Shown here piece by piece: positions 982-49,423 of a stretch of DNA of 64,000 nucleotides. Below the pieces are notes generated by a model. That model saw only the letters and a list, made by a program, of their open reading frames with translations. It was not told the origin of the DNA and did not search any database. The stretch lies in assembly GCA_944322005.1 (NCBI GenBank), contig CALUNL010000002.1, positions 303,503-367,502 of the forward strand, read 5' to 3'. Made by a program: the position numbers and the translations under genes. This DNA comes from an uncultured Alistipes sp. (GTDB lineage: Bacteria > Bacteroidota > Bacteroidia > Bacteroidales > Rikenellaceae). Every line of letters begins with the position of its first letter. Position 1 is the stretch's first letter.

Positions 982-2190
982 TTAGTAGATGACTACGATG
1001 CGGTTGTGGCGAGGCTTGCCGAACGGGCAGTTCTGGGTTCCGCAATTGCGGTACTCCATACGCTCTGCAGGAACGCCCTTCGAGAGGAGGTATTCGTATA
1101 CCAGACGCGCACGCTTCTCGGCCAGACGGACGTTGCACGACTTGCTTCCAGTCTCAGGATCGCTGAATCCGTCGATCTTGAATACCGGCTTCTTCGAGTT
1201 CTTGATGTGCTCGGCAATGAGGTCGAGACGCTTCTTTGCGGTGTCGGTCAGTACGCCGTAGCCGTAGGAGTAGAAAATCATCTCGTCATAGTTGTCGGTC
1301 GAAACAGCCTCCTTTGCGGTTTCAGCCTGTGCCTTCTGATCCTCCACGAGCTTTGCGAGCTCCTCGGCCTGATTCTGTGCATCGGTCAGGGCCTGCTTTA
1401 CAGCCTCGAGTTCAGCCTGTCTGTCGGCAGCCTGCTTCTCTGCAAGCTCCTTCTCTGCAAGCGCCTTCTGCTCTGCAGCCTTGTGCCTGTTAAGCTGCTC
1501 GAGGGCGGCCTTTGCCTGCTCCTCGGTAGCACCCGAACGCTCGAAGGTACGCTTGTTGAAGTTTACGGTAAATCCTGCCATTGCAGTCAGACCGTGGAAA
1601 TGTGCCGATTTGTCGATTGCAACCGGGCGGAAACCTCCCTTGCCGAGATCATACTGTACCTGAATGTCGATGCTTACGGCATCGCATACGCGGAAACGGT
1701 TCTGCAGTCCGATGTTCGCAAGGAACTCATATGTGCGCAGATCCGGCGTATTGAGGGCACCTACGCCCAGGCCGGCTCCTGCATAGAGCACAGCATTGTA
1801 AACGCGCTGCTTGTAGCCTCCGATCCAGTTGGAGAGGTTGACCATGAAGTCCGGGTGTATGTGTATATATGACCAGTTGGCGGTTTTCTGACCCCAACGG
1901 CCGCCTTCACCTGTAACACGAACTCCGAATATCGGGTGGAACCATTTGCCTACAGCCAGATATCCGCCGACATATACGGCATCGGCAGACTGAAGCCCGG
2001 CGCCGAGGTTGAAGGTAGGACCTACTCCGCCCTGGAGCTCCCAGTTGTCCCAGAAACCGTTGGATATGAATCCGGCCACATGTTTAGGCTTTTCGTTCTG
2101 GCATTTGTCTTGTTTTTCAGCTGCATATGCACTGACAGTAAAGAGAGCGCATATCAGTGTGCAGGAAAGAATGGATATAAACTTTTTCAT
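982..2190 (-). CDS. OmpA-family outer membrane porin/peptidoglycan anchor
   Basis: A 402-residue protein starting at ATG (MKKFISILSC...) with a signal peptide cut near AYAAEKQ. A TTG two codons upstream is a less likely start. Residues about 30-215 look like an eight-strand OmpA barrel with alternating aromatic strands and Gly turns. Residues about 220-290 form an Ala/Glu/Lys/Gln-rich coiled-coil linker. Residues about 300-402 are the OmpA_C peptidoglycan-binding domain, with DGFSDPETGS, NVRLAEKRARLVYEYL and the terminal NRIVVIY. Such proteins tie the outer membrane to the cell wall and are usually abundant. The sequence just upstream of the start is AT-rich without a strong Shine-Dalgarno site, as is normal in this phylum. 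Confidence 0.92.
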   Translation of the reverse strand: MKKFISILSCTLICALFTVSAYAAEKQDKCQNEKPKHVAGFISNGFWDNWELQGGVGPTFNLGAGLQSADAVYVGGYLAVGKWFHPIFGVRVTGEGGRWGQKTANWSYIHIHPDFMVNLSNWIGGYKQRVYNAVLYAGAGLGVGALNTPDLRTYEFLANIGLQNRFRVCDAVSIDIQVQYDLGKGGFRPVAIDKSAHFHGLTAMAGFTVNFNKRTFERSGATEEQAKAALEQLNRHKAAEQKALAEKELAEKQAADRQAELEAVKQALTDAQNQAEELAKLVEDQKAQAETAKEAVSTDNYDEMIFYSYGYGVLTDTAKKRLDLIAEHIKNSKKPVFKIDGFSDPETGSKSCNVRLAEKRARLVYEYLLSKGVPAERMEYRNCGTQNCPFGKPRHNRIVVIY

Positions 2191-2510
2191 AAGCAATGAA
2201 AATTAATTATTTCAGTGTGATTGAATAAATTCGGTTTGCATACTTTGCCGAAAGGTAATATATTTTTTTCAAATGTGCGAATTTTCAACGGAAAACTTTC
2301 CCGGGAGTTTGCGTTCCGGGCAGAAGGGCATTGACGATTTATAATGCTATTGCTTTCAAATATATTGCTTTTTTTGATGTATTATATATCACATGTGTTG
2401 ACTTTTGTGATTTTTTTTGTGTACTTTTGCCTTCCGATGAAATATTTTTATTAATTTTACGAATACATAATTGCAAACACCATACAAAACCCCGAATAAA
2501 AAACAATTTT
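2191..2510. other. Divergent intergenic region between the OmpA gene and the HAD gene
   Basis: 320 AT-rich bases between two divergent genes. The minus strand has only a weak -7-like TACCTTTC near 2255, which could serve the OmpA gene. The plus strand carries the better promoter listed separately. I see no RNA gene or repeat. Confidence 0.5.
2398..2429 (+). promoter_or_regulatory. Bacteroidetes-type promoter for the HAD gene
   Basis: TTG at 2398-2400, a 21-base spacer, then TACTTTTG at 2422-2429, matching -33 TTG / -7 TAnnTTTG. Predicted start of transcription is near 2435, leaving a leader of about 75 bases. Confidence 0.6.
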
Positions 2511-3374
2511 ATGTCGAAATTTCATGAATATCGTTCGATATACTCGCACGATGAACTTATGTCGCGGTTGCGCCGCATAAAACATGTCGCTCTCGACATG
2601 GACGGAACCATTTACATGGGAATGTCGCTTTTCCCCTTCACCAAGCCTTTCCTTTCGAAGCTCGGAGACCTCGGGGTGAACTACTCGTTCCTTACGAACA
2701 ACCCTTCGAAGTCGATTGCCGACTACCTTCACAAGCTTGAGGTGCTCGGAATAGAGGCAACCGAGGAGGAGATGTACACGACGGCGCTCGCCACGATAGA
2801 CTACATAAAGAAGAACTACCCGAAGGCGCACCGGCTCTTCCTGCTCGGCACCCCGTCGATGATATCGGAGTTCGAGAAGGCCGGATTCGAATCGACGGCC
2901 GATGACCCGGACGACGTTCCGGATGTTATTGTCGCTGCATTCGACATGTCGCTGGTCTACAACCGCCTGTGCCGTGCCGCATGGTGGATATCGCAGGGTG
3001 TGCCTTATGTGGCCACCAACCCCGACCGCGTATGCCCTACGGACCAGAGGGTTGTCCTGGTCGATTGCGGATCGATATGCGCATGTCTCGAGCATGCCAC
3101 AGGCCGCAAGCCGGACATCACGCTCGGCAAGCCCGACCCGAACATGCTCTCCGGCATAGAGAGCCGTTACGGGCTCTCTTCCGACGAGATTGCCATGGTG
3201 GGAGACCGCATCTACACCGATATCGAGATGGCTCACAACGCAAATGCCTTCGGAGTCCTTGTCCTGTCGGGCGAGACGACTCTCGAGGTGGCCGATGCGG
3301 CTCCGAAACAGCCGCACCTCATCTGCGACAGCATCGAGGTGCTGGGCCGCCTTATCGAGGAGGCACACAGATAG
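2511..3374 (+). CDS. HAD-IIA family sugar-phosphatase (NagD/AraL type)
   Basis: A 287-residue cytoplasmic hydrolase. ATG at 2511 begins MSKFHEYRSIYS; the open frame upstream (from 2331) has the AT-rich composition of a leader and overlaps the promoter. HAD motif I is LDMDGTIYMG (nucleophile Asp and acid/base Asp). Motif II is the STNNPS-like FLTNNPSKS, motif III lies in TLGKPDP, and motif IV is MVGDRIYTDIEMA. The cap is the C2 type of the NagD subfamily, which dephosphorylates sugar phosphates and other small metabolites; substrate cannot be read from sequence. It stands alone between its own promoter and a terminator. Confidence 0.88.
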   Translation: MSKFHEYRSIYSHDELMSRLRRIKHVALDMDGTIYMGMSLFPFTKPFLSKLGDLGVNYSFLTNNPSKSIADYLHKLEVLGIEATEEEMYTTALATIDYIKKNYPKAHRLFLLGTPSMISEFEKAGFESTADDPDDVPDVIVAAFDMSLVYNRLCRAAWWISQGVPYVATNPDRVCPTDQRVVLVDCGSICACLEHATGRKPDITLGKPDPNMLSGIESRYGLSSDEIAMVGDRIYTDIEMAHNANAFGVLVLSGETTLEVADAAPKQPHLICDSIEVLGRLIEEAHR

Positions 3375-43629: not shown

Positions 43630-44559
43630 TTATTTCTTGCGCGATGAGAGGAACCTCTCGCAGTCGAGAGCCGCTATGCAGCCCGAGCCGGCCGCCACGA
43701 TTGCCTGGCGGTAGTGCGGGTCGCGGACGTCGCCTGCGGCGAAGATGCCCTCGACGGAGGTCTTCGACGTGTCAGGCTGCGTGCGGATGTATCCGTTCTC
43801 GTCCATGTCGAGTTTCCCGGCGAAGAGCTCGGTGTTCGGGTGGTGGCCGATGGCGAGGAAGAATCCCGATACCGGGATGTCGTAGACCTCGCCGGCGCCG
43901 TTGCGCACCTTTACGCCCGTCACGCCGTCATCGTCGCCGAGCACCTCGACCGTATTGTGCTCGAAAAGCACCTTGATGTTCGGCGTCGAGGCCACGCGCT
44001 CCTGCATCGCCTTCGATGCGCGCAGGAACGGCTTGCGGACTATCAGGTAGACCTGGCGGCATATCGATGCGAGGTACGTCGCCTCCTCGCATGCCGTGTC
44101 GCCTCCGCCGACGACGGCCACGTCCTGCTTGCGGTAGAAGAATCCGTCGCAGGTGGCGCAGGCGCTCACTCCCATGCCGCGGAAACGCTGCTCCGACTCG
44201 AGACCGAGGTATTTGGCCGATGCGCCCGTGGCTATGATTATGGACTCGGCCTCCAGGGCTCCGTCATCGGCCGTTACGGCAAACGGGTATTTCGCCGTGT
44301 CGACATCGGTGACCATGCCCGTGCGGACATCCGTGCCGAAACGCTCCGCCTGGCGGCGCAGGTCGGCCATCATGGCCGTACCCGAGATGCCCTCGGGATA
44401 GCCCGGGAAGTTCTCGATCTCGGTGGTTGTGGTGAGCTGGCCTCCTGGCTCGATACCCTCGTAGAGCACCGGCTCGAGACCGGCCCTTGCGGCATATATG
44501 GCGGCCGTGTATCCTGCAGGGCCGCTGCCGATTATGAGACATTTTACGTGTCGTTCCAT
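43630..44559 (-). CDS. trxB: Thioredoxin reductase
   Basis: A 309-residue NADPH-flavoprotein that keeps thioredoxin reduced. The FAD motif is IIGSGPAGYTAAIYAARAG; the redox pair is C134 and C137 in SACATCDG; the NADPH motif is VAVVGGGDTACEEATYL; the C-terminal FAD contact is GIFAAGDVRDPHYRQAIVAAGSG. GGQLTTTTEIENFPGYP is also typical. Length close to E. coli TrxB (321). It begins 12 bases after the WG-repeat pseudokinase gene, so it is probably read from the same transcript as the kinase/vWA group, which may tie that group to redox stress (inference). Confidence 0.97.
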   Translation of the reverse strand: MERHVKCLIIGSGPAGYTAAIYAARAGLEPVLYEGIEPGGQLTTTTEIENFPGYPEGISGTAMMADLRRQAERFGTDVRTGMVTDVDTAKYPFAVTADDGALEAESIIIATGASAKYLGLESEQRFRGMGVSACATCDGFFYRKQDVAVVGGGDTACEEATYLASICRQVYLIVRKPFLRASKAMQERVASTPNIKVLFEHNTVEVLGDDDGVTGVKVRNGAGEVYDIPVSGFFLAIGHHPNTELFAGKLDMDENGYIRTQPDTSKTSVEGIFAAGDVRDPHYRQAIVAAGSGCIAALDCERFLSSRKK

Positions 44560-44571
44560 TTTCAGTCTGTT

Positions 44572-45558
44572 TTATTGATGTTTGATTTGCAAAAACTCTT
44601 CCGTTCGGCGGCCGTCGTAGTCGAATACCGCCTGCATGCCCGCCCTGCGCACGAGCGATGTCCCGTCGTGGACGTCATAGCATACATCGTCGTATACGGC
44701 CGGAATCACCTCGCGCCCGCACTTGTCGATAAGCCCGAGACCGTCCGCCGTCTCCACCACGGCCCGCCCTTCGCGGAAGTCGTCGGCCCAGAGGTATTGC
44801 GGCGCTATGACCGTCTCCATATCTTCATCGGCGAATCCGTAAAGGCCGTTGCGGATGATGCGTATTAGGCCTTCGTGCGGCGTGAAGGGCGTATCTCCGG
44901 CGCCCTCCGTCGAGTATGGGGCGCGGATGTCGCTCAGGAGTCCGTATTGCGGCGTGCCGCAGCCGTCCTCGTCTGGATTCAGCCCCGCAGCCGCATAGAG
45001 CGCACGGAAATCGTCGCGGCAACCCTCGCCGATGGTGGCGTAGTGGTACCTTATCGGATGCAGTATCCCATCATCGCCGACAATGAGGTTTGACGGCTTG
45101 AGGTTGTTGTGCGAGAATCCCAGCCGGATGAACTCTTCGCGCAGCTCCCCGATCATGCGGCGCAGGCGCGCCGGCTCCATCCATGCCGCGGCCGAGGGGA
45201 ACGGCTCCCCGTCGGGCAGGCTCTGCCGTATCACGTCGCAGCTGTTCGTGCGGCCGAGCTCGTCCGAAAACGACATCTCGGAGTAGAGTATCCTGTATTC
45301 GCAAAGGTGGCTGCTCCGGATGAAACGCAACTGGGCGGCCGTACGTTCGACGGCCTCGACGGCCCCTTCGGCGATAGGCACGCACAGCAGATGCCATTTG
45401 CCCTCCAGCCGCACTCTCGCCTCGGCAAAGCGCGAGGTGCGGAACACGGCCGCCCCATCACCTCCGGTCTCGGGAATCATGCCGCCGAGGGTGCGGAAAC
45501 TCTCCGACGGTCTCTTCAGACTGTTGCGGAATGCGACTATGGTGGGAATGGCTGCCAT
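44572..45558 (-). CDS. Pseudokinase with C-terminal WG repeats
   Basis: A 328-residue cytoplasmic protein. Residues about 40-180 align with the kinase fold of the 48290-49423 gene: LGFSHNNLKPSNLIVGDDG corresponds to the catalytic loop HxDLKPxN, but the catalytic Asp is Asn (N152). The DFG Asp is replaced by Arg (about R170, in HPIRYHYA). It should therefore lack phosphotransfer and is best called a pseudokinase. The C-terminal part holds WG-type repeats: GLYGFADEDMETVIAPQYLW with DDFREGRAVV, and GLIDKCGREVIPAVYDDV. WG repeats usually mediate protein contact. Six bases after the vWA gene and 12 before trxB. Function unknown. Confidence 0.75.
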   Translation of the reverse strand: MAAIPTIVAFRNSLKRPSESFRTLGGMIPETGGDGAAVFRTSRFAEARVRLEGKWHLLCVPIAEGAVEAVERTAAQLRFIRSSHLCEYRILYSEMSFSDELGRTNSCDVIRQSLPDGEPFPSAAAWMEPARLRRMIGELREEFIRLGFSHNNLKPSNLIVGDDGILHPIRYHYATIGEGCRDDFRALYAAAGLNPDEDGCGTPQYGLLSDIRAPYSTEGAGDTPFTPHEGLIRIIRNGLYGFADEDMETVIAPQYLWADDFREGRAVVETADGLGLIDKCGREVIPAVYDDVCYDVHDGTSLVRRAGMQAVFDYDGRRTEEFLQIKHQ

Positions 45559-45564
45559 GCTGAC

Positions 45565-46422
45565 TTATCTCAATACGGTTGCGCTCCGCGAGCCTATGTC
45601 GAGCAGGGCAACGGCTTCGGTTATGGATGCGTTGTAACTCATCGCTATGAATGGCGGCAGCGCGAAATCACCGCGGAACCGCCTCACGGCCTCGTTCATC
45701 GGTTCGGGTACGGTGCTCGACATCTCGGCCAGCAGCCTTGCGTAGCGGTTGTCGGCGCCTATCTCGTCCCGCCGCGGGAATATCATCGACTCCTGTCCGG
45801 AGTTGGTCGATATGTGGACGTTCACCAGCAGTACGTCTCCGTCGCGCGTGCAGCATCGCTTGAGCCTCTCCGCCGCCTCGCACAGCTGCCTGTCGTCGCA
45901 GTCGGTCGCCTCGCCGTCGGTGATGTTGAACACCATCGGCGGGAAGCTGTCCGCATTCTGCGGCTCGGCGCACCAGCGGCCCACCATCTCCGTCACGGCC
46001 GACAGCATCTCGTACATCGGTGTGGAGCCTGCCGCATGCGGCTCTATCCACAACGGCGTCTCCTCGGTCACCATGCGAAGCTCTCCGGACGGGAGCAGCC
46101 TCTCGTACGAAAAGCGTCTGCGCATCGGGCTCTTGCCGGCCAGAAGCGTGACCGGAACGAACTCCATGCTGTCGTCGAGCAGCGGGTAGACGTTGTCGTC
46201 CGCATAGCCGACCACGGCTATGTCGTAGTAGTTGCGCACACCGTCCTCGCGCCTTGCGCGCATCAGCAGCTCGTCTATCAGGCGGCTCGTTATCGATGCC
46301 ACGGCCTCGGCCTTGGTCATGCGGCGCGAGTTCACCGTAATGCGCTCCTGCATCGAGCACGACTGGTCGATGGCGATGACGAATGCCGTACGGTGCATTC
46401 TCGTTATTTCACTGCCGTACAT
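45565..46422 (-). CDS. Von Willebrand factor A domain protein
   Basis: A 285-residue cytoplasmic protein without signal peptide. The vWA fold starts RTAFVIAIDQSCSMQERI: the metal-ion-dependent adhesion site is intact, DxSxS at D19, S21, S23. The MIDAS Thr lies in AAGSTPMYEML and the Asp in FNITDGEATD. NYYDIAVVGYADDNVYPLLDD fills the second strand region. In vWA/kinase/PP2C triads (TerY-type) such proteins organise phosphorylation-dependent complexes (family knowledge). This one sits between DUF4954 and a pseudokinase, with an active-looking kinase further upstream; no PP2C gene is seen. A purine-rich AGAAGAGACC precedes ATG 46422. Confidence 0.85.
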   Translation of the reverse strand: MYGSEITRMHRTAFVIAIDQSCSMQERITVNSRRMTKAEAVASITSRLIDELLMRARREDGVRNYYDIAVVGYADDNVYPLLDDSMEFVPVTLLAGKSPMRRRFSYERLLPSGELRMVTEETPLWIEPHAAGSTPMYEMLSAVTEMVGRWCAEPQNADSFPPMVFNITDGEATDCDDRQLCEAAERLKRCCTRDGDVLLVNVHISTNSGQESMIFPRRDEIGADNRYARLLAEMSSTVPEPMNEAVRRFRGDFALPPFIAMSYNASITEAVALLDIGSRSATVLR

Positions 46423-46495
46423 AGGTCTCTTCTCTGTTTCGGCCGGATGCCCCGGCCTTATATTTCGGCGGTCCGTAAGGCTCTGCCGTGTGCCG

Positions 46496-48229
46496 TCACA
46501 GCCCTCTCACCCGCTTGAAATCCTCCATGCGCTCCTGTTCGGAGTCGCTGTCGATGCCGTAGCCGACGCTCATGTCGGCCGAATTCTCGCGCTGCAGGTC
46601 GGCCTCGACCGTCTCGCACAGCGAGCGGTACGCCTCCTCCCCGCGGGCGATGCACTCCGCTATCTCCTCCTCCGACGGCTTGTGCCCGAGCATGCGGGCA
46701 AGTTCCGCTAGGGCCCATGCCCGCTCGTGTTGCAGCCTCTCGCCGTCGAACCGCCGCAGGCGTGCGTCAATCTCCTCCGGTGTGGTCACGCGCTCCGCCT
46801 CGATGTCGTCGATAAGCCGCTCCACGGCCGCCTTCGAGATATACTGTCCGGCCATGTCTACCCATTTGCCGTATGCCTCGTCGGTGTTGTCTGTCCGGCC
46901 TTCCGTCCCGTTCGAGAGCATCTGCCCGAGTGCACAGGCGATATATTTTTCGTAGAGCTTGATGCCCATCCGGAGCATCGATGCCTTTATGAAGGTGTTG
47001 CGGTAGTGGTACAGCTGTTCGTCGGGTTGCGAGTCCCCCATCTGCCGCAGGCTCTCCGCCGCACAGATGACGCGTCCGGTGAGGTACGGGTTGAACTCCT
47101 CGAAGTCTATCACGTCGCGGCGTACGCTCCTGCGGTCGCGCTGCGGCCACTTCGCGATGTCGCGTGCCGTACCGTAGCTGCGCAGGTTCATCGCCGGCAT
47201 GAGCATCGAGACGCCGTTGCTCTCCACAAGGTACGAGAAGGGCATCTCCGACGTGTCGTGGTGCTTTACATGCCTGCCCATGACCATCGTGAACGGCCCT
47301 TCGGCCGCCGGCGCCATGACGTAGGCGTTGCTGGCGAACTTGCAGCCGCGCGGGTGCACCGCCTGGTGCACTGCACCGCCCTTGAAGAGATGGTTGCTCT
47401 GGTTGGTGCCGCTGCCCCCGTTGAAGAAGGAGAAGATGCCGGCTATGAGCAGCGTCGACTTGTGGTGCGAAACCGTATAAGGCCCGGCGAATATGGATGC
47501 GGCCTCGCCGTTCTCGCAGTGGGAGTTGGCGAAGAAGAGCGAATTGGCGGCCGTGAAGCCGTTGCCGACGGTTGCGGCCTCGCCGATGAAACACTTCTCG
47601 CAGATTGCGCCGTTGTCCATCACGGAACCCTCGGCCGCGATGAAGTCGCGCGCCTTGACATCGGCTCCGACCCTCGCCCCGTCGAGCAGCGTGCCGTTCT
47701 CGAGCAGCGACGCCCCCTCTATCGTGACGCCGTTGCCGATGCGGACTTCGCGTATGATCCTTGCCCCGACGATCTGACAGTCGCTGCCGACCGTACCCGT
47801 CTCCGACGACACCTCTTCGCCGCGTCTTACGGCCATTGCGTCGAGCTTCGCTACGAGGTTCGGACGGTGGCGGTACATGGCTGCCATATAGGCGGCCTGT
47901 GCCGACATCCTGTCGTGGATGAGCACCCGGCGCCCGCCGCACTCGTTGACCGTTTCAACCGCCGTGCCGTTGCCGAACGGCGAGCGGTGGCGGCACTCGA
48001 GGAGCGTGACGCTGCGTACGACGCTGCGTTCGCCTATGCGGTAGCCCGAGACGGAGGAGTCGGTTATCCTGGCGCCCGAATCTATGAGCACCCTCCCCGA
48101 AAGGCGGCATCCGCTCAACTGTTCCGTGCGGAAGTCGTCGCAGACCATGACTCCGGACCAGTCGTCGGACCGGTTCCCGGCTGCTTCGAGACGTGCGACC
48201 TCACTGTCGGTCAGGTTTCTGAATCCCAT
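46496..48229 (-). CDS. DUF4954 protein with left-handed beta-helix repeats
   Basis: A 577-residue protein. Residues about 40-270 show hexapeptide-like repeats of a left-handed beta helix ([LIV]-G-x-x-x-x spacing): GCRLSGRVLIDSGARITDSS, YRIGERSVVRSVTLLE, GSDCQIVGARIIREVRIGNG, VTIEGASLLENGTLLDGARV, CEKCFIGEAATVGNG. A conserved block follows (FFNGGSGTNQSNHLFKGGAV, APAAEGPFTMVMGRHVKHHD). The last 200 residues are helical and charged. The fold resembles sugar-nucleotide acyl- and nucleotidyltransferases, and I recall this architecture as DUF4954, common in Bacteroidetes with unknown activity. It has its own promoter inside the kinase-gene end region. Position within the kinase/vWA cluster suggests a functional link. 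Confidence 0.82.
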   Translation of the reverse strand: MGFRNLTDSEVARLEAAGNRSDDWSGVMVCDDFRTEQLSGCRLSGRVLIDSGARITDSSVSGYRIGERSVVRSVTLLECRHRSPFGNGTAVETVNECGGRRVLIHDRMSAQAAYMAAMYRHRPNLVAKLDAMAVRRGEEVSSETGTVGSDCQIVGARIIREVRIGNGVTIEGASLLENGTLLDGARVGADVKARDFIAAEGSVMDNGAICEKCFIGEAATVGNGFTAANSLFFANSHCENGEAASIFAGPYTVSHHKSTLLIAGIFSFFNGGSGTNQSNHLFKGGAVHQAVHPRGCKFASNAYVMAPAAEGPFTMVMGRHVKHHDTSEMPFSYLVESNGVSMLMPAMNLRSYGTARDIAKWPQRDRRSVRRDVIDFEEFNPYLTGRVICAAESLRQMGDSQPDEQLYHYRNTFIKASMLRMGIKLYEKYIACALGQMLSNGTEGRTDNTDEAYGKWVDMAGQYISKAAVERLIDDIEAERVTTPEEIDARLRRFDGERLQHERAWALAELARMLGHKPSEEEIAECIARGEEAYRSLCETVEADLQRENSADMSVGYGIDSDSEQERMEDFKRVRGL

Positions 48230-48254
48230 TGCTGCAAATGTTTTCTATTGAGTG

Positions 48255-48285
48255 CAAATATAGCGTTTCCGCCCGAAAATAGCAA
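48255..48285 (-). promoter_or_regulatory. Promoter of the DUF4954 gene
   Basis: Minus strand TTG (48285-48283), a 20-base spacer, TATATTTG (48262-48255). The box lies 25 bases upstream of the DUF4954 start and just past the kinase stop, so the downstream genes can be expressed without the kinase. Confidence 0.7.
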
Positions 48286-48289
48286 TTCC

Positions 48290-49423
48290 TTACGGGAGCT
48301 CTTTCCCGTCGCGCCCTATTGCCGAGTGCCTGCCGCCGCGGACAACCTCCGCCCGTCCGTTGCGGAACGGCTTTACGGTGTCGCAGCCGGAGCAGTCGAT
48401 GACCGTACGGCCTCCGGTGTCGATGAAGTGCCATGAACTGCCCGTGCGGACTGCCGCCAGGCCCTCGCTGAACTCGAAACCGCAGTCGTACAGCGGCGGT
48501 ATTACGAATCCCACCTCGTCGCTGTATCCCCAAAGTCCGCCCTTTTCGGCAAGCTGCAACTTGCCGACGGCCTCGCGGACGGGCCTCTGCCCGTATTCGA
48601 GCAGCGTCCCGAGCCCGAACAGCCTCGGAATCGGTGAGCGCAGCAGTCGGGCGATGCGGTAGCGCAGGGCGTCGCCGCGTGTCGCGAAGAGCCGTTCGAT
48701 ACGCTCGAGCGTCTGGTCGCATCCGCCGACAGCCATTGCCGGATCGACCATCTCCCCTCCGTCGCCGACACACTCCCGCAGCGACATGTCGGCCGCAAGG
48801 GCGTGCAGGCATGTCGAGATCAGGGCGATGGGGTAGTCGTCTATGGACTTGTCGAAAATCTCTCCGCGGAGCGGGTGTTGGAATGCCCGTGTGCCGCTCT
48901 CCTCGCAGTCGCACTCATCCATGCCCGGGCGGTACATGGCGTCGAAGTCGATAAGGTGCATGCCCTCCCCGCCGACGATGATGTTTTCCGGCTTGAGGTC
49001 GCCGTGCGCCCACTCCTGCGAGAGCAGCCATGCGGCCGTGGCGTCGAACATCGATGCAAGCTGCGCCATGCGTGCGGCGTCGGTCTCCGGGCCCTTCATC
49101 GCGTGTTCCAGGGTCGTGCCGTCGTACCACTCGTCCAGCACCACGTCCGTCCACTCGCCGTGCTCGGCGTCGGTGTACACGAAGAGTTCCGACTGCAGCA
49201 GTCTGTCGCGGTAAATCTGCCGCAGGTTGCGCTTGTGGCGGAGGTAGCATCGGAGTTTGCACACCTCCCCGCGGCAACGCACCTTGAATACGACCGCAGA
49301 GTTGCCGACCGAGCAGAAGGGCTCGCCCCGCCCGTTGCGCAGGAGCTCCAACGGCCCGAGCGTCCGTGTGAGGCCCTCCGTGTCGGCCAGCGACGAGAGA
49401 TATTGGAATACGGATGTCACCAT
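48290..49423 (-). CDS. Protein kinase with C-terminal WG repeats
   Basis: A 377-residue cytoplasmic kinase-fold protein. The N-lobe has a loose Gly-loop (SVGNSAVVFKV) and the ATP Lys K56 in EVCKLRCY. The catalytic loop is complete: HGDLKPEN with D142 and N147. The DFG position reads DFD (D159-F160-D161), so metal binding is likely kept. An APE-like region is weak. The C-terminal third has WG-type repeats: GGLWGYSDEVGFVIPPLYDC with FEFSEGLAAVR, and SSWHFIDTGGRTVIDCSG. It is probably an active Ser/Thr kinase. First gene of the cluster with DUF4954, vWA and pseudokinase. A -7 box lies five bases from the ATG. Confidence 0.82.
   Translation of the reverse strand: MVTSVFQYLSSLADTEGLTRTLGPLELLRNGRGEPFCSVGNSAVVFKVRCRGEVCKLRCYLRHKRNLRQIYRDRLLQSELFVYTDAEHGEWTDVVLDEWYDGTTLEHAMKGPETDAARMAQLASMFDATAAWLLSQEWAHGDLKPENIIVGGEGMHLIDFDAMYRPGMDECDCEESGTRAFQHPLRGEIFDKSIDDYPIALISTCLHALAADMSLRECVGDGGEMVDPAMAVGGCDQTLERIERLFATRGDALRYRIARLLRSPIPRLFGLGTLLEYGQRPVREAVGKLQLAEKGGLWGYSDEVGFVIPPLYDCGFEFSEGLAAVRTGSSWHFIDTGGRTVIDCSGCDTVKPFRNGRAEVVRGGRHSAIGRDGKELP

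Follow-up and report, generated by a model that had tools for sequence, protein, structure and literature searches.

The window analyzed here is a stretch of 64,000 nucleotides of contig CALUNL010000002.1 from an uncultured Alistipes species, the genome of which has a size of 1.84 Mb (handle G000), and the window itself was used as the locus of this genome. It contains a compact group of minus-strand genes encoding a WG-repeat protein kinase (KIN), a DUF4954 protein, a TerY-like vWA protein, and a truncated WG-repeat pseudokinase (PSK), which the initial annotation had united with trxB in one possible phosphorylation system. The four consecutive open reading frames (ORFs) were found exactly where they had been annotated, they are separated by 60, 73, and 6 bp, and trxB follows after a further 12 bp. 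The gene after trxB was read as rnz. Scans for promoters and terminators had a yield about equal to that obtained with shuffled sequence, and a Bacteroidetes-type promoter pattern had two matches, neither of which is located inside the cluster.

KIN (positions 48290 to 49423, minus strand, 377 amino acids) matches the padloc model STK_OB, the kinase model of the TerY-P system, from residue 29 to residue 215 with an E-value of 2.4e-21. The catalytic loop motif HGDLKPEN and the DFD motif are intact. An alignment of 54 of the 55 KIN proteins encoded next to a vWA gene revealed that D142 (48998 to 49000), the Asp of the catalytic loop, is present in 53 sequences, that D159 (48947 to 48949), the DFG-type Asp, is present in all 54, and that N147 is also conserved. 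These three residues had been named correctly in the initial annotation, in contrast to K56, which had been taken for the catalytic lysine. The K56 column contains A, I, M, or S in 50 of the 54 sequences, and the conserved basic residue is R58 (49250 to 49252; R in 34 and K in 20 sequences), which lies in a predicted strand from residue 53 to 60 at the position of the beta3 (VAIK) lysine. The columns of K56 and R58 presumably correspond to A70 and K72 of PKA. The C-terminal part of KIN consists of WG beta repeats (Pfam, 6e-9), and it contains neither an OB fold nor a zinc ribbon, the STK_OB match having ended at residue 215. Its WG beta domain comprises residues 290-369 (48317 to 48556), which form strands in the structure model and match Pfam WG_beta_rep.

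The vWA protein (45565 to 46422, minus strand, 285 amino acids) matches the padloc TerY model over residues 2-282 with an E-value of 3.1e-51. Its metal ion-dependent adhesion site (MIDAS) is complete, as had been annotated. In 11 aligned sequences, including that of the window, D19, S21, and S23 of the DxSxS motif (46354 to 46368) as well as D169 are invariant, and T134 is nearly so. Pfam contained no match for the vWA protein, and a sequence search of the PDB with the vWA profile yielded nothing below 0.029.

The pseudokinase PSK

PSK (44572 to 45558, minus strand, 328 amino acids) is homologous to KIN (hhalign, 99.5%), and fold models show that it has a protein kinase fold. The annotated loss of two catalytic residues was borne out at precisely the predicted positions. 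N152 (45103 to 45105) stands in place of the catalytic Asp and R170 (45049 to 45051) in place of the DFG Asp. Among 75 of the 77 linked PSK proteins (the additional one that shares its frame with trxB, described below, is not among the 77), N152 is retained in 65 and R170 in 68, and the Asp of the HRD and DFG motifs is found in none of the 75 sequences. Further conserved positions are N157 (68/75) and P61 (75/75). PSK has kept a signature of its own, HNN...IR, together with the WG domain, which comprises residues 231-312 (44623 to 44868) and was identified by strands in the model and by a Pfam WG_beta_rep match (4e-13). WG repeats are therefore present in both kinase-like proteins, as had been annotated.

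The kinase-like half of PSK is truncated. The columns of the activation-segment motif are gaps in all 77 aligned sequences, and the late helices of the C-lobe are absent from the structure model. The alignment tool shifts the beta3 column of PSK; in the column of residue 59, and consistent with a separate alignment, neither Lys nor Arg is found among the residues listed for 74 of the 75 sequences. A sequence search of the PDB with PSK alone yielded nothing useful.

A kinase tree was calculated with 38 of the 132 linked KIN and PSK proteins (chosen in even steps after a length filter), four proteins of a sister genus, and five outgroup proteins. The pseudokinases form a single clade with support values of 100/100 that includes the two of the sister genus, both of which derive from overlong frames, while the KIN group is weakly supported (69/0). 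On the basis of these sequences, the tree places the probable origin of PSK before the split of Alistipes and its sister genus. The ratio of nonsynonymous to synonymous substitutions (dN/dS) of PSK is 0.13-0.37 in the eight closest pairs and has a median of 0.218 in 28 pairs, which are not independent of one another and include some ORFs with upstream extensions.

It is conceivable that PSK is more than a scaffold and that its conserved HNN...IR site is capable of metal-free nucleotide binding or performs other chemistry, which would then be the output of the module. Some other pseudokinases catalyze AMPylation or polyglutamylation, e.g., SelO and SidJ. The specificity and retention of the substitutions at residues 152 and 170, the conservation of N157 and P61, and dN/dS values far below 1 in close pairs are in line with this idea. 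A fold search also listed the ATP-gamma-S-bound pseudokinase ULK4 at rank 3, with similar scores in the neighboring rows. However, the gapped activation segment, the missing C-lobe helices, and the lack of a basic beta3 residue argue against it, and some species have H, G, A, or C at these sites. Taken together, we regard a catalytic or sensory function of this pocket as unlikely.

In two genomes the PSK matches span an in-frame stop codon (G010:C305:1562-2497, TAG; G394:C11:582456-583154, TGA), and these might be pseudogenes or assembly errors. One stop is also listed for the PSK match in some other genomes, where it is perhaps merely the end of the gene.

Linkage of the genes in Alistipes and related genera

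The vWA gene is present in 97 of 101 sampled genomes of the genus and in nine of 295 sampled genomes of the order, that of the window included. The surroundings of all 97 vWA loci were scored with profiles, whereby the flanks were often ended by contig ends. PSK is located directly behind the vWA gene in 78 loci, KIN before it in 55, and DUF4954 is linked to it in 38. The 78 cases comprise 77 separately called PSK genes and the PSK of locus L106 (genome G333), where PSK and trxB share one frame. At two loci the downstream side could not be judged, because only 17 bp (L206) or 0 bp (L231) were left on the contig; in the latter genome, G366, PSK adjoins the remaining part of the vWA gene, which is located on a different contig. 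The full set of KIN, DUF4954, and PSK accompanies the vWA gene in 28 of the 97 loci, PSK only in 26, KIN and PSK in 15, KIN only in ten, DUF4954 and PSK in eight, KIN and DUF4954 in two (one of which is L106), and none of them in eight. Because of the linkage counts (78, 55, and 38 of 97), the core of the cluster is KIN-vWA-PSK, with DUF4954 and trxB as common but non-obligatory neighbors.

Of the 77 pairs, 51 have a distance of 1-25 bp between the vWA stop codon and the PSK start codon, 12 have one of -61 to 0 bp, 11 one of less than -61 bp, and three one of more than 25 bp. The first ATG, GTG, or TTG was taken as the start of a gene, and the values below -61 probably reflect starts that were called too far upstream. 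A PSK with the kinase-like half is present in 93 of the 101 genomes. By our reading, these have a best E-value of 1e-25 or better, and the remaining eight have 5e-15 or weaker or no match; a tally including matches to the WG part only gives 99 of 101. KIN is present in 90 of 101 genomes at a cut-off of 1e-28 and in 98 in the automatic tally, and some of the unlinked KIN matches may be other kinases. The four genomes without the vWA gene (G007, G009, G036, and G375) are all devoid of PSK (Fisher test, p = 1.7e-5), a test that ignores phylogeny, co-localization, and genome incompleteness (71-98% in these four genomes).

The genes might also be chance neighbors, each independent of the others and grouped near trxB by coincidence. 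Adjacency to trxB could keep neighbors together, and in some genomes KIN and PSK are indeed unlinked from the vWA gene. However, the adjacency of vWA and PSK persists at several distinct chromosomal sites. In addition, the sister genus also has a homologous kinase and PSK on either side of the vWA gene (L091 and L092), and the models for TerY and for the TerY-P kinase both have matches. A mere chance arrangement is therefore very improbable.

The DUF4954 gene (46496 to 48229, minus strand) encodes a protein of 577 amino acids with the Pfam domains DUF4954 (1e-136) and DUF6819 (5e-21). While the DUF4954 assignment of the initial annotation was thus confirmed, the left-handed beta helix that had also been assigned found no comparable support, as the Pfam matches are below the threshold (LbH_EIF2B, 30.5 bits versus a cut-off of 54). 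The protein is highly conserved, with a mean column identity of 69% in 17 sequences, and the large number of His, Asn, and Asp residues that are invariant suggests that it might be an enzyme. A sequence search of the PDB yielded nothing useful for it. The gene for trxB (43630 to 44559, minus strand) encodes a thioredoxin reductase (Pfam Pyr_redox_2) and is a neighbor in 51 of the 97 loci.

A unit of four or five genes including DUF4954 and trxB, as initially annotated, had to be abandoned in view of these linkage counts and of the separate occurrence of DUF4954 throughout the order. A total of 26 loci retain vWA and PSK with neither KIN nor DUF4954 nor trxB within the fetched flanks. A weaker version would be that DUF4954 is a substrate or an effector of the kinase module and that the four-gene view is right for the clade that has DUF4954. 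The linkage in 38 loci and the strong conservation of the protein would fit to this version. Against it, DUF4954 occurs in 97 of the 295 order genomes, 90 of which have no vWA match, and only seven have both genes. Within the genus it is found in 81 of 101 genomes, 19 of the 20 genomes without it contain the vWA gene, and it is unlinked in 59 of the 97 loci. A function of DUF4954 within the module is thus quite unlikely.

In G333, PSK and trxB are found in a single open frame of 643 amino acids (L106:10029-11960), and the ATG start codon of trxB is retained inside. The KIN of this genome has lost the catalytic Asp (HGGL instead of HGDL). The common frame is given little weight, because it is a single case, the internal ATG is kept, and the accompanying KIN lacks the catalytic Asp.

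The gene position behind vWA

The TerY-P triad consists of a TerY vWA protein, a PP2C phosphatase, and a Ser/Thr kinase to the C-terminus of which a zinc ribbon or an OB fold is fused (Anantharaman 2012 and Gao 2020, as cited in the excerpt of PMC11090510). The initial annotation had likened the kinase and vWA pair to Ter systems and had proposed that PP2C is replaced by the pseudokinase, and both proposals are in agreement with our results. Six outgroup genomes from five other families of the order were compared, and in five of them (G225, G241, G113, G313, and G175) a gene matching the padloc PP2C model is located directly behind the vWA gene. In the sixth, G103, the ORF behind the vWA gene groups with the PP2C ORFs by BLAST; it runs off the contig and has no padloc match. 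A search of plasmids had two matches, both cyanobacterial and none from Bacteroidota, and both plasmids have the order vWA, PP2C, and STK_OB kinase.

In contrast, the padloc PP2C model of TerY-P had no match in the 101 genomes of the genus and none in two sister-genus genomes, and no ORF matching a PP2C profile was found in the 97 vWA loci. The 14 control genomes that were built into the search of the 101 genomes also gave no match, and the search was therefore repeated with nine genomes. This time, the PP2C genes of the five outgroup genomes were recovered right behind the vWA gene, and no match was obtained for G103, G149, G249, and the window genome. Since PP2C is found behind vWA in the outgroups and on the plasmids and is lacking there in the genus, PSK occupies the position of PP2C.

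The relationship to TerY-P raises the possibility of an anti-phage defense module, in which PSK would act as a sensor or decoy in the stead of PP2C. The padloc models for TerY and STK_OB belong to a library of defense systems, and stand-alone anti-phage TerY-P-like modules with OB-fused kinases have been reported (Gao 2020, as cited in the excerpt of PMC11090510). The distribution of the vWA gene is patchy at the level of the order (nine of 295 genomes), and one outgroup locus has the vWA fused with a DarT domain and, next to it, a DUF6939 protein. However, its presence in 97 of 101 genomes of the genus, often between gcvP and trxB, is unlike that of patchy defense genes, KIN carries WG repeats rather than an OB fold or a zinc ribbon, and the searches found no phage match and no plasmid of Bacteroidota. 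A defense function is accordingly improbable. The near-universal presence in the genus, the frequent location among housekeeping genes, and the lack of phage matches rather suggest a role in cell physiology than a mobile defense function.

Proposed mechanism and comparison with known systems

Sequences and predicted folds indicate an apparently competent kinase, a TerY-type vWA protein with a full MIDAS, and a truncated kinase homolog in the PP2C position. We propose, with a probability only slightly better than even (about 0.55), that these proteins constitute a derived TerY-P-like phospho-switch of Alistipes and its sister genus, with an inactive subunit of kinase fold standing in for the phosphatase next to vWA. 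We infer the following mechanism. KIN would phosphorylate either the vWA protein itself or a client that the latter holds. PSK would be a regulatory subunit without catalytic function that carries WG repeats and binds to the vWA protein or to KIN, and it might switch KIN on or off or recruit a client of KIN. The two WG domains might bind each other or one common ligand, and dephosphorylation, if there is any, would be supplied in trans. An allosteric pairing of the two kinase-like proteins around a vWA scaffold, as suggested in the initial annotation, is likewise an inference.

Several observations weigh against this proposal. The nearest relative, G337, with 68% identity of the vWA protein, contains KIN, DUF4954, and vWA and no PSK; at its locus (L209) 93 bp, between 6858 and 6952, separate vWA from trxB. 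G006, G028, and G331 also have vWA without PSK, and PSK is therefore dispensable. At nine of the ten loci with KIN only, KIN is next to vWA and PSK is encoded elsewhere in the genome (e.g., G341, G343, G351, and G372), and the tenth, that of G366, is cut by a contig end. Within PSK, conservation is lowest in the kinase half, which has a mean pairwise identity of 31% versus 43% for the WG part of PSK and 44% for the kinase part of KIN. In a wider and partly saturated set, the dN/dS of this half has a median of 0.535 and exceeds 1 in some pairs. KIN itself is atypical, because it has an Arg at the position of the beta3 Lys and, by our own assessment, its short alphaC helix is devoid of Glu, and its catalytic activity is therefore uncertain.

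Lastly, a phosphatase of the PP2C_2 type (PF13672) is encoded elsewhere in eight of 41 genomes of the genus, including the window's own genome (C4:3721-4284). The view that PP2C is missing from the genus altogether was therefore discarded. The PF13672 protein of the window genome is not listed by the padloc PP2C model at an E-value of 1e-5. With a different PP2C present elsewhere in these genomes, dephosphorylation in trans is possible. At L281:3580-4536 and 1818-3092 (contig C4 of G000), the ORF next to the PP2C_2 phosphatase is HipA-like by eye.

A bolder version of the phospho-switch would be phosphatase-free. In this version PP2C was swapped for the truncated PSK of single origin, the HNN...IR pocket of which would be a working sensor for a ligand or, without metal, for a nucleotide or would otherwise be catalytic, and the vWA protein would be under the control of an active and an inactive kinase sharing WG domains. 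We regard this version as speculative and rather doubtful. In the open-licence literature no description of a pseudokinase in the place of PP2C was found among the matches listed, and term searches of PMC13174449 and PMC9933665 yielded nothing about it either.

To our knowledge, pairs of a kinase and a pseudokinase have been little described in bacteria. Well-known eukaryotic cases of an active kinase regulated by an inactive homolog are Fam20C/Fam20A and LKB1/STRAD. The Alistipes proteins resemble them in this combination; however, they are not homologous as a system, and the Alistipes set includes a bacterial vWA protein.

Another arrangement for comparison is the locus L095 from another family of the order, which has a homologous kinase and a homologous vWA protein. 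It differs from the Alistipes locus by the fusion of vWA with a DarT domain and by the presence of PP2C and a DUF6939 protein. In this locus (L095:5566-11762) the TerY-like vWA follows the DarT domain, and the DUF6939 protein, which has a weak NADAR-DarT1 match, a kinase bearing leucine-rich repeats, and the PP2C adjoin. Possibly, L095 is a phospho-regulated DarT toxin-antitoxin locus. L094 (5091-10667) and L096 (1244-4280) look alike, with vWA proteins that are similar in length and start to that of L095.

A vWA protein in a phosphorylation-dependent complex has been described for Sulfolobus, namely ArnA-ArnB (excerpt of PMC6509490). However, the partner is an FHA protein and not a pseudokinase as in Alistipes.

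The closest reference system is the TerY-P triad. Its kinase/phosphatase/vWA switch has been hypothesized to function in metal sensing, and in versions with OB-fused kinases it is reported to act against phages (excerpt of PMC11090510). The Alistipes locus shares with it the TerY-type vWA protein (3e-51), the TerY-P-type Ser/Thr kinase (2e-21), and the compact arrangement of genes on the same strand. Unlike the triad as outlined in that excerpt, it has no PP2C and has a pseudokinase in the slot behind vWA, the kinase carries WG repeats instead of a zinc ribbon or an OB fold, and the locus is near-universal in the genus. The kinase/pseudokinase pair of Alistipes thus has a clear reference system, its origin is placed by the tree before the split from the sister genus, and nearly all sampled genomes of this common gut genus have retained it. 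Should PSK prove to regulate KIN via the vWA protein, this would exemplify a bacterial switch that has been shifted from kinase-versus-phosphatase to kinase-versus-pseudokinase control, and it would provide a concrete signaling role for WG repeats.

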